Assembly (NCBI RefSeq): GCF_029960785.1
Contig: NZ_JASBQE010000015.1
Location: forward strand, 62,001-126,000
DNA from: Polyangium sp. 15x6
GTDB lineage: Bacteria; Myxococcota_A; Polyangia; Polyangiales; Polyangiaceae
DNA: 64,000 nt
Direction of reading: 5' to 3'
Below, in pieces: positions 5,873 to 14,647 of this stretch. Made by a program: the position numbers and the translations under genes. Each line of letters begins with the position of its first letter. Position 1 is the first letter of the stretch. The notes under the pieces are model-generated. The model did no database searches, had not been told where the DNA came from, and worked only from the letters and a program-made list of their open reading frames with translations.

Positions 5873-6244
5873 ATGAAGACCACGCTGGGCCTGCTCGCCC
5901 TGCTCTTCGCATCCGCCTGCAGCGGGCCGGAGGTCCCTTCGGCCTTCCAGCCGGATTCTCCCGCATCACCCGCGGCGTCCCCGGCGCCTCGTCCGCCCGT
6001 CGCGGCGGTGCTCGCGGCCTCGGACCCGCGGGACGCCAGCGTCTGCGTGCCCGAGAAGCCTTGCGTCCTTCCCGACTCCGAGGACGAGGGCGGCTCCGGG
6101 CATCAACACGGCGGCCACGATCACGGAAATCACGGCGGCCACGATCACGGAAATCACGGCGGCCACGATCACGGAAATCACGGCGGAAAAACCCCCGCGC
6201 CGCCCCCCACGGGCCACGAAGGCCATCGCGGCCACCACCATTGA
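5873..6244 (+). CDS. histidine-rich lipoprotein, probable metal-binding
   Basis: A 123-residue protein whose ATG at 5873 opens a clean signal peptide ending in the lipobox ASAC (Cys15). A Pro/Ala-rich linker leads to an acidic stretch (EDEGG) and a C-terminal His-rich tail made of three identical eight-residue units (GGHDHGNH), ending HGHHH-like. Such tails bind Cu, Ni or Zn ions. The short intergenic distance (4 bases) to the outer-membrane factor gene, and the multicopper oxidase next, indicate an operon for copper handling in the periplasm or outer membrane. The specific metal is inferred. An in-frame start exists 36 bases upstream but it would disrupt the signal peptide. Confidence 0.75.
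   Translation: MKTTLGLLALLFASACSGPEVPSAFQPDSPASPAASPAPRPPVAAVLAASDPRDASVCVPEKPCVLPDSEDEGGSGHQHGGHDHGNHGGHDHGNHGGHDHGNHGGKTPAPPPTGHEGHRGHHH
6110..6181 (+). repeat. three tandem 24-bp repeats encoding the His-rich units
   Basis: Three perfect copies of a 24-base unit lie at 6110-6133, 6134-6157 and 6158-6181. Each encodes GGHDHGNH in frame. Perfect identity at the DNA level means the copy number could change by slippage, altering the length of the metal-binding tail by 8 residues per unit. Confidence 0.95.
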
Positions 6245-11549: not shown

Positions 11550-13166
11550 ATGCGTGACGCGTGGATGCGTGCGGGTTTGCTTTTGTGCGGCGTCGTGGGG
11601 ATGACCGCGGGATGCTTCCAGGTCCCGGCGGAGTCGAACGCGCCCGATGACAGGAACGAGTCCAGCGGCACCCCGGGCGCGGGCGGCAACGGCGGCGAAG
11701 GAGGCGACGACGGAGGCTTCGGCTCCGGCGGGGAGGGCGGCTCGCAGGGCGGCAACGACGACTGCGCGATCGGGCAATACCCCACGCTCGACGGGATCCC
11801 CGCGAGCGCCACGGTCCGGTACGTGTCGACGATCTGCACCGCGAAGCCCGGCGAGGGAGACGGCACGCGGGACAAACCCTTCGGGAGCCTGCAGGAGGCG
11901 GTGAAGGAGAGCGCGCCGGGCGACTATCTCGTGCTGATGAACAAGTCGATCTTCCTCGAAAACGTGGTGATCGACAAGCCGCTGACCGTCCTCGGCGCCG
12001 ATCCCGAGACGCCCGCCGAGGAGGCCTCGATCATCGTGCAGGCGCCCGCACCGAACGCGATCATCGTGCAATCGAAGGACGTGACGCTGCGCGGGATCAT
12101 CGTGCAGAACCCCCAGGGGGCCGGGATCTGGGTGCAAGGCGGCGCCGCGACGATCGACGGGTCGAAGGTGACGAAGGCCGAGAAGAGCGGCGGAAGCGAG
12201 CTCGAGCGGGGCAACGGGATCCTCGCGACCGACGACGCGAGCATCATCGTGCAGCGCACGATCATCGTGCAATCGGACAACACGGGCGTGCTCGTGCAGG
12301 GCGCGCGCGGCACGATCACGGGCAGCACGATCTCGCAGAACAAGGGCGTCGCCGGGATCTGGGTGCAGCGATCGAGCGGGTTCGTGACGCTCTCGGGCAA
12401 CATGATCGCGGCGAACGCGGGGACCGGCATCTCGGTCCTGAGCTCGCGGGCGATCATCGTGCAAAACACGGTCGGCCAGACTGCCGTCGGCGGCAGCGGC
12501 GACGATCGCGCCGACGGGATCGTCGTGGCCGAGCATTTCGTGAATGGCGTGTCGGAGGGCTTCGCCGAGGCTTCGCTGCAAGGCAACGAGATCAGCGGCA
12601 ATGCGCGGCTCGGCGTGCTGTTCTCGGGCGACGCGCGGGGCATCATCGTGCAGAACACGGTGAAGGGCAACGGCGCCGCGGACACGGCGAAGCGCGGCGC
12701 GGGCATCTGGGTGCAATCGGGCGCCGGCGCGCTCGCGCCGATCACGATCGAGCAGAACGTCGCCTCGGGCAATGGCTTCGCGAACATCGGCGTGGGCGGC
12801 AATTCCCGGGCGATCATCGTGCAGAATCCGTCGATCGGGAGCGCGATCGCAAAACCCTGGACGGCGAACGGCGTGACGGCGAACGCGGGCGAGGGCATCG
12901 TGGTGTTCGGCGGCGGTCACGCGTCGATCAAGAACAACGTGCTCGCGGCGAACGGGCGCTCGGCCGTCTTGCTCGAAGGCCCGGCGAGCGGCACGACGGT
13001 CCAGGGGAACACCATTTCGGGCAGCGAATACGCGATCATCGTGCAAAGCGTGGCCGAGCTGCCCTTCCTCGAAATGAACACCCTCCTCGACAACGGGAAG
13101 ATCGACATCGTCGCGGCCGGAGAGGCCGGTCACCCCGTGCCCCACGAAACCTTCGATACGCCGTGA
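11550..13166 (+). CDS. right-handed beta-helix lipoprotein with repeated IIVQ motif (copy 1)
   Basis: A 538-residue protein with ribosome-binding site GCGGAGG. The signal peptide ends in TAGC (lipobox; Cys21), followed by a Gly/Asp/Ser-rich linker. From residue ~95 there is a DUF1565-like opening (YVSTICTAKPGEGDGTRDKPF) and then a right-handed parallel beta-helix of repeating coils with N-x-I/G-x-I phrases. Nine coils carry the tetrapeptide IIVQ and three more GIWVQ; the Ile codons are always ATC and the Val codon GTG. Such helices are surface-exposed polysaccharide-binding or adhesive scaffolds; no catalytic site is evident. It is followed 14 bases later by a paralogue, indicating a tandem duplication and an operon. 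Confidence 0.85.
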   Translation: MRDAWMRAGLLLCGVVGMTAGCFQVPAESNAPDDRNESSGTPGAGGNGGEGGDDGGFGSGGEGGSQGGNDDCAIGQYPTLDGIPASATVRYVSTICTAKPGEGDGTRDKPFGSLQEAVKESAPGDYLVLMNKSIFLENVVIDKPLTVLGADPETPAEEASIIVQAPAPNAIIVQSKDVTLRGIIVQNPQGAGIWVQGGAATIDGSKVTKAEKSGGSELERGNGILATDDASIIVQRTIIVQSDNTGVLVQGARGTITGSTISQNKGVAGIWVQRSSGFVTLSGNMIAANAGTGISVLSSRAIIVQNTVGQTAVGGSGDDRADGIVVAEHFVNGVSEGFAEASLQGNEISGNARLGVLFSGDARGIIVQNTVKGNGAADTAKRGAGIWVQSGAGALAPITIEQNVASGNGFANIGVGGNSRAIIVQNPSIGSAIAKPWTANGVTANAGEGIVVFGGGHASIKNNVLAANGRSAVLLEGPASGTTVQGNTISGSEYAIIVQSVAELPFLEMNTLLDNGKIDIVAAGEAGHPVPHETFDTP

Positions 13167-13180
13167 AAGGAAGGACGACC

Positions 13181-14647
13181 ATGACGAACCGATTGCATTT
13201 CGTACGTCTGGCTGCACTGCTCGCCGCGCTGCCGATCGGGGGCTGCGGGGCTGACAATTCGCAGGCGACGCCCGCCTGCGGCACATACGCCGACGCGCCC
13301 AAGGGCGCGAGCAGCGCGGTGTACGTATCCGCGACCTGCGGCGCGCGGGACGGGGACGGCTCGGCGGAGCGGCCGTTCGCGAGCATCCAGCAGGGGATCG
13401 ACGCGTCGGCCCAGGGCGGCGCGGTGCTCGTCGACGCCGGGACGTATGCCGAGAACCTGAGCATCACGAAGACCGTGGAGGTGCTCGGCGCGAACACGCG
13501 CGGCGAGCCGGAGAATGCGAGCATCATCGTGCAAGCGCCCTCGCCGTACGCGATCACGGTGGAGGGCTCGACCGTGGTCCTGCGCGGGATCATCGTGCAA
13601 AAGCCCCAGGGCGCGGGGATCTGGGTGCAGAAGGGCGGCAACGCCGTGCTCCAGGACTCACGAATCGAGGGCACGGTCGCGGTGAACGAGGACGGCCACG
13701 GCGTGATGGCCACCGACAGCGGCAGCATCATCGTCCAGCGGACGATCATCGTGCAATCCGAGGGCGCGGGCGTGTACACCAACGCTGCCGCGGCGGCGAA
13801 GGTCGAGCGCAGCATCATCGTGCAGAACGGCGGCTTCGCGGGGATCTGGGTGCAGAGCACGCTCGGCGAGGTTTCCCTCGTGGGGAACGAGATCAGCGAG
13901 AATGCCGAGGGCGGCATCACGATCCTCGGCTCGCGCGCGATCATCGTGCAGAACCAGGTGAAGAACACGAAGAGCCGCATGTCCGGAGGGCTTGCGGACG
14001 GCATCCGGGTGATCGGCGACAGCAAGGTCGGCGAGGCCTACGTGGAGATCGGCGGCGAGAAGCCCGAGAGCAAGAACGTGGTCGAGGGCAACGACCGCGT
14101 CGGGATTCTCTTCTCGGGCGAGAAGGCGCGCGGGATCATCGTGCAAAACGAGGTGGTGGCCAACGCCGACGACACCAAGCGCGGGGCCGGGATCTGGGTG
14201 CAATCGAACGCCGGCACCGCCCCGAACGCGGACCAGACCGTGGGCATTCGAATTGCCCAGAACCGCGTCGAGGGGAACCATTACGTCGGGATCGGCGTGA
14301 CCAACAATGCCCGGGCGATCATCGTGCAGAACCCGAGCATCAGCGGGACGATCGCGGGAGACATCAAGGCGAACGGGATCCTCACCAAGATCGGCGACGG
14401 GCTCGGCGTGTACGCGGGCGCGAGCGCGCACGTCGACAAGAACACGATCAGCGCGAACGCGCGCGTGGGCGCATTGTTCTTCGGGGCGGCGAATACGTGC
14501 GTCATGACGAACAACGTCTTCGAAAAGAACAGCGAAGGGTCGATCATCGTCCAGAACACGGACGGCCTCGCCCTCGATACGAACGAGGCCGACGTCCCGC
14601 CGGTCGCTCCCGCCTTCCCGGTCGGCGTCGACACGTCCGATCTGTGA
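13181..14647 (+). CDS. right-handed beta-helix lipoprotein with repeated IIVQ motif (copy 2)
   Basis: A 488-residue paralogue of the preceding gene. The start is the ATG at 13181 behind AAGGAAGGA; the GTG overlapping the previous stop is less likely. The signal peptide ends in GGCG (lipobox). The DUF1565-like opening (YVSATCGARDGDGSAERPF), the first coils (NASIIVQAPSPYAI, GIIVQKPQGAGIWVQ) and most later coils align with copy 1. Nine IIVQ units (seven with GTG, two with GTC) and three GIWVQ units are present, and the six-residue spacing of one pair (SIIVQRTIIVQ) is identical in both genes. It is presumably an outer-surface scaffold. Function unknown. Confidence 0.85.
   Translation: MTNRLHFVRLAALLAALPIGGCGADNSQATPACGTYADAPKGASSAVYVSATCGARDGDGSAERPFASIQQGIDASAQGGAVLVDAGTYAENLSITKTVEVLGANTRGEPENASIIVQAPSPYAITVEGSTVVLRGIIVQKPQGAGIWVQKGGNAVLQDSRIEGTVAVNEDGHGVMATDSGSIIVQRTIIVQSEGAGVYTNAAAAAKVERSIIVQNGGFAGIWVQSTLGEVSLVGNEISENAEGGITILGSRAIIVQNQVKNTKSRMSGGLADGIRVIGDSKVGEAYVEIGGEKPESKNVVEGNDRVGILFSGEKARGIIVQNEVVANADDTKRGAGIWVQSNAGTAPNADQTVGIRIAQNRVEGNHYVGIGVTNNARAIIVQNPSISGTIAGDIKANGILTKIGDGLGVYAGASAHVDKNTISANARVGALFFGAANTCVMTNNVFEKNSEGSIIVQNTDGLALDTNEADVPPVAPAFPVGVDTSDL

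Follow-up and report, generated by a model that had tools for sequence, protein, structure and literature searches.

The 64,000-nucleotide stretch of DNA from Polyangium sp. 15x6, a predatory soil bacterium, analysed in this work (hereafter, the window) contains two adjacent genes, which we call A and B:

11550..13166, + strand: gene A, beta-helix lipoprotein of 538 aa with nine IIVQ and three IWVQ (ORF, PF13229, AlphaFold; signal peptide by inspection)
13181..14647, + strand: gene B, beta-helix lipoprotein of 488 aa with nine IIVQ and three IWVQ (ORF, PF13229, AlphaFold; conserved in five species)

The most likely start of gene B is the ATG at 13181, which has a Shine-Dalgarno sequence (GGAAGGA) upstream and replaces the GTG at 13163. 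The gap between the stop codon of gene A (13166) and this ATG comprises 14 nt, and the two genes probably form an operon and are co-transcribed. They are flanked by a gene for a Suv3-like helicase and by a protein kinase/AAA/TPR gene on the opposite strand. The original prediction regarded A and B as tandem beta-helix paralogues, and both the profile scores and the structural models agree with this view: they are right-handed beta-helix proteins of the PF13229 family, tandem paralogues of Polyangium, with scores of 99.7 bits (A) and 77.2 bits (B) against a Pfam gathering cut-off of 25.9. The AlphaFold models, built on five-sequence alignments, are beta-helices in both cases (pLDDT 72.7 for A; pLDDT 75.7 and pTM 0.78 for B), with three short strands per coil according to DSSP. 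Their top structural matches are right-handed beta-helices as well, the closest solved folds being the AlgE/AlgG epimerases, tailspikes and NosD, with sequence identity mostly in the range of 12-18%; such a match demonstrates the fold, not the function. Sequence searches of solved structures returned no match to either protein, and searches of Rfam and PHROGs returned none for the region. By inspection, each protein begins with a putative signal peptide and a lipobox-like Cys (...VVGMTAGC in A, ...LPIGGC in B, LAGC in Polyangium sp. y55x31), and, as far as location can be judged from these two elements only, both proteins are most likely exported and form rigid rods anchored in the outer membrane.

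Both proteins repeat a short word. The 11-base string ATCATCGT(G/C)CA (ATCATCGTSCA), which encodes IIVQ, occurs in 18 in-frame copies, nine in each gene, all on the + strand and none elsewhere in the window, while dinucleotide shuffles of the window yield on average 0.05 copies. The related word IWVQ (ATC TGG GTG CAR, within GIWVQ) is present three times in A and three times in B. The sites are listed below in window coordinates; s1, s2 and s3 are the three faces of the helix, p1-p12 number the positions of a coil from the beginning of strand s2, G214 stands for a homologue from another genus of the same family, and G001 is a further Polyangium genome.

12030..12041, + strand: IIVQ, A residue 161, s3 (p7-10); VELT in G214 (AlphaFold/alignment)
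12060..12071, + strand: IIVQ, A 171, s1; ITVE in gene B (AlphaFold/alignment)
12096..12107, + strand: IIVQ, A 183, s3 (p7-10); LRIV in G214 (AlphaFold/alignment)
12126..12137, + strand: IWVQ, A 193, s1 (AlphaFold)
12243..12254, + strand: IIVQ, A 232, s2 (p2-5), first I and V inward; LTLR in G214
12261..12272, + strand: IIVQ, A 238, s3 (p8-11), second I inward; AVSN in G214
12357..12368, + strand: IWVQ, A 270, s1 (AlphaFold)
12453..12464, + strand: IIVQ, A 302, s2 (p3-6), second I inward, V outward; IIDT in G214
12642..12653, + strand: IIVQ, A 365, s2 (p3-6); IIDT in G214, LILH in gene B of G001
12705..12716, + strand: IWVQ, A 386, s1 (AlphaFold)
12813..12824, + strand: IIVQ, A 422, s2 (p3-6); IIDT in G214, LLWE in gene B of G001
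13035..13046, + strand: IIVQ, A 496, s1; MILQ in G214 (AlphaFold/alignment)
13523..13534, + strand: IIVQ, B 115, s3 (p7-10) (AlphaFold)
13589..13600, + strand: IIVQ, B 137, s3 (p7-10) (AlphaFold)
13619..13630, + strand: IWVQ, B 147, s1 (AlphaFold)
13727..13738, + strand: IIVQ (with GTC), B 183, s2 (p2-5) (AlphaFold)
13745..13756, + strand: IIVQ, B 189, s3 (p8-11) (AlphaFold)
13814..13825, + strand: IIVQ, B 212, s3 (p8-11); TISQ in gene A (AlphaFold/alignment)
13844..13855, + strand: IWVQ, B 222, s1 (AlphaFold)
13940..13951, + strand: IIVQ, B 254, s2 (p3-6) (AlphaFold)
14135..14146, + strand: IIVQ, B 319, s2 (p3-6) (AlphaFold)
14192..14203, + strand: IWVQ, B 338, s1 (AlphaFold)
14318..14329, + strand: IIVQ, B 380, s2 (p3-6) (AlphaFold)
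14543..14554, + strand: IIVQ (with GTC), B 455, s1 (AlphaFold)

Among 170 predicted genes sampled from this genome, which comprise 91,145 codons, a single IIVQ was found; at this rate about 0.011 copies would be expected in the 1,026 residues of A and B, as compared to the 18 seen. The whole 13.4 Mb genome harbors only 24 further copies of the 11-base string, which are scattered. Thus, the coordinates, the reading frame, the shuffles and the gene sample all confirm the 18-fold in-frame reuse of IIVQ in two tandem paralogues, a strict reuse beyond chance; the original prediction was also right about GIWVQ as a second form and about the codon counts in the IIVQ words (GTG for Val in 16 of 18, eight CAA and ten CAG for Gln). 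An assembly artefact is rejected by the presence of identical words in several independent assemblies, in one of them in two contigs. A search of the available literature yielded nothing on an IIVQ motif (the text matches were pharmacokinetic terms) or on beta-helix proteins of Polyangium, and, as had been claimed, we found no described family with this motif.

Every word of A and B sits in a strand in the respective AlphaFold model. According to DSSP of these models and the alignment with the G214 homologue, the words are spread over all three predicted faces and over five or more registers, with their side chains in either orientation, where the registers are inferred from strand boundaries, the position of the N ladder and the homologue rather than from measured side-chain angles. 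The Val of the word aligns with Leu of the homologue at A 232 and with Asp at A 302, and the second Ile aligns with Glu, Arg and Thr at 161, 183 and 232, respectively, which indicates that the same tetrapeptide faces opposite ways at different sites. The stacked Gln/Ile ladder or single binding face that had been suggested is therefore not supported, and A and B do not conform to an antifreeze-like beta-helix, in which repeated residues keep one register on one face of successive coils, although face s1 taken alone could form a partial I/W/L-Q ladder.

Comparison of A with B reveals how strictly the word is kept. At the 11 shared word sites 44 of 44 residues are identical, versus 63/156 (40%) in the other strands (p 6e-15); counted by column, identity amounts to 48/52 in words, 63/156 in other strands and 99/223 elsewhere. 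The tetrapeptide is thus under strong constraint at the protein level, tighter on the word than in any other strand of the two proteins. On the other hand, the Gln codons of A and B at the shared sites agree in only 5 of 11 cases within the genome and in 4 of 11 between genomes, and the last base of the word is at background, so that the residues stay fixed although the underlying bases change. Since Gln codons match no better within than between genomes, ongoing gene conversion between A and B was rejected; insertion of a mobile word was rejected as well, as word and non-word sites align without gaps.

Gene B is found in five of the six sampled Polyangium species (the host and four others), while gene A is intact in two, the host and Polyangium sp. 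y55x31. In P. fumosum and in G005 an internal deletion has left the outermost tens of bases at either end of A, and G001 has a shorter remnant; hence, the A/B pair is ancestral in the genus. The remnants map to about 5880-5934 of locus L010, about 1424 of L011 and about 1354-1446 of L015 (window 11622-13113), and G005 retains a short ORF that includes the signal peptide of A, with Ser in place of the lipobox Cys. Polyangium sp. y55x31 keeps 18/18 words, and gene B of P. fumosum and that of G005 keep 9/9. Gene B of G001 has seven: a pair of neighbouring sites reads LILH and LLWE, separated by IWLQ; LILH and LLWE differ from the word in several of its 12 bases, and the flanking codons are almost unchanged. 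A recombinant segment as the source of these missing words was rejected, because the flanks outside the words are not unusually divergent.

Beyond the genus, a search of the class detected a single full-length homologue, that of G214 (L016, E 6e-55), plus a few weak partial matches. It shares the architecture of the Polyangium proteins, to which it is about 34% identical along most of its length, and it carries a repeated word at three s2 sites equivalent to A 302, 365 and 422. However, this word is IIDTNN (ATCATCGAYACCAACAAC), present in four copies that always adopt one register, and ordinary diverse strands take the other sites where Polyangium has IIVQ. Thus, each of the two lineages has a recurrent word at these three sites, and the words differ. 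The four IIDTNN copies lie on the minus strand; each spans 18 nt, and their codons are nearly identical. When about 50 beta-helix genes from this genome and from the order were compared, only Polyangium A and B had a tetrapeptide that recurs at least seven times between dissimilar flanks (flank identity 0.10-0.13); the other multi-copy cases are whole-coil repeats or unrelated Cys motifs. The DNA pattern of a double word, searched in 318 genomes of the class, matches only Polyangium A/B and short head-to-tail arrays in four other genomes: in one genome of the same family (L064, G018:C5:34225-34281) ATCATCGTGCAG units follow each other with a 15-base period, and three other genomes have similar double matches (L063, L070, L062). 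A large beta-helix protein of another genome (L017, G023:C6:998764-999645) contains many near-identical two-coil units (RASLVEQNHDVGVFV..DATIEATVVRATQP), a plain unit duplication.

It had also been suggested that the reuse reflects selection on the DNA string itself. The near-fixed codons are real as a count, but almost what is expected from codon context, as calculated from the 170 genes of the same genome: Ile is encoded by ATC in 97.5% of cases when followed by A and in 94.9% when followed by G, and 68% of V-Q pairs use GTG. Given this context, the exclusive use of ATC in IIVQ and IWVQ words (42/42) has p of about 0.05, and GTG in 16 of 18 IIVQ words has p 0.04. CAA, by contrast, is used in 11 of the 24 words versus 5.2 expected (p 0.006; window 12030-14554) in a genome that prefers CAG, so that base 12 shows no conservation and tends against the genomic preference. 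The flanks of the words (-24..-3 and +1..+24) are almost everywhere no more alike than random in-frame sites, with the exception of one or two positions right before the word, where small or Arg residues account for the likeness. A function of the 11 bases as a nucleic acid, be it a small-RNA or protein sponge on the mRNA or a recombination or modification site, could draw on the uniform ATC and on the excess of GTG, which reaches 22/24 in both types of words (p 0.007 versus V-Q pairs). However, it is the least probable of the explanations we considered, and a very improbable one: codon context, the free base 12 and the background flanks all speak against it, GTC is tolerated, IWVQ interrupts the string, Rfam contains no match, and the other 24 copies are dispersed through the genome.

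We propose instead, with a probability of roughly 0.4, that IIVQ serves as an interchangeable beta-strand brick specific to this lineage, on which purifying selection acts through the amino acids rather than the DNA. The data themselves show that the reuse is old, constrained at the protein level and indifferent to register; the brick is our reading of them. In this scenario, IIVQ (or, on face s1, IWVQ) became the sequence of many strands in the Polyangium lineage at a time when A and B had yet to split. The beta-branched residues of the tetrapeptide would fit the helix core in either orientation, leaving I/W/V and Q exposed on all faces, and purifying selection would then preserve the word without any single stacked ladder being formed. 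It is tempting to speculate that the hydrophobic strands thus exposed may help in lateral packing or in adhesion, and that the word may have first spread by copying of short stretches or coils. The weak point of the brick is that it leaves the need for identical residues unexplained, as other combinations of I, V and T would fold equally well.

Alternatively, the words could be relics of coil duplication, left over from the copying of an ancestral IIVQ coil, the copies having since diverged more quickly outside the word. Words of the same register class do occupy equivalent places, on s1 (171, 193, 270, 386, 496) and in every second coil on s2 (302, 365, 422), and other beta-helix genes of the order (e.g. 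L017 and L032) show obvious duplication of coils. However, five register classes would require separate origins or register shifts, the flanks resemble each other no more than random in-frame sites do, save for the one or two codons in front of the word, and the strands of the G214 homologue are unrelated at most word sites; we find this origin doubtful, yet the strongest competitor of the brick. Two further explanations appear quite unlikely, and equally so. If the unfolded chain were read, with IIVQ and IWVQ as linear recognition sites for a chaperone, a protease or a secretion factor, the folded orientation would be irrelevant, in line with conservation of the word in any register and either orientation; short aliphatic stretches are typical of Hsp70 sites. 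Such sites, however, normally tolerate exchange of I, L and V without requiring identity, and the word is absent from the other beta-helix proteins of the genome that we examined. A carbohydrate- or protein-binding ladder restricted to s1 (IIVQ/IWVQ/VLVQ, from which I/W/L and Q point outward), with only an incidental role for the remaining words, would agree with the single register of the s1 words and with the fold matches to AlgE/AlgG epimerases and tailspikes, and outward Trp and Gln are common in sugar-binding beta-helices. However, the s1 words fill only coils 1, 2, 4, 5, 9 and 13, those on s2 and s3 are equally conserved, and a common fold proves no function. Concerted evolution, by which short-tract conversion or template switching would rewrite strands to the word of the lineage (IIVQ in Polyangium, IIDTNN in G214), could account for different words at three equivalent sites in two genera and for the clustered changes of LILH and LLWE in G001. 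Nonetheless, we consider it still less likely, as base 12 and the Gln codons are homogenised neither among sites nor between A and B of one genome, the borders of the word are codon borders, and 11-12 bases are short for conversion. A bolder notion, that of a solenoid family that writes one lineage-specific strand word into many sites regardless of register, through an undescribed word-level rewriting or through linear-peptide recognition, strikes us as unlikely, albeit less so than either of these processes considered singly.

With respect to known systems, the fold of A and B is ordinary, but their word usage is not. They resemble PF13229 (Beta_helix) and TIGR03804 (para_beta_helix) in scores far over the cut-off, coil lengths, the N ladder, the G-I-x-V strand and the predicted beta-helix; however, the coils of usual members are only loosely similar, and the approximately 50 relatives in the order lack a repeated, register-independent tetrapeptide. 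The fold is also common to NosD (structural Z 28.5, PF05048 above its cut-off), but with TIGR04247 scores of 43.1 bits (A) and 35.3 bits (B) against a cut-off of 300 the two proteins fall outside NosD proper. The AlgG/AlgE mannuronan epimerases, compared by fold alone, show the same fold (Z 31.7 for AlgE6 and 27.6 for AlgG), but A and B adjoin helicase and kinase genes rather than nos or alg genes. Repeat proteins are usually explained by duplication of whole units or by ladders of fixed register, whereas in A and B an identical tetrapeptide recurs within unrelated flanks, at sites where its side chains face opposite ways, while the bases that encode it drift. Should a structure bear this out, the pair would be a clean test case for what constrains a solenoid strand: the fold, the surface or the linear peptide.
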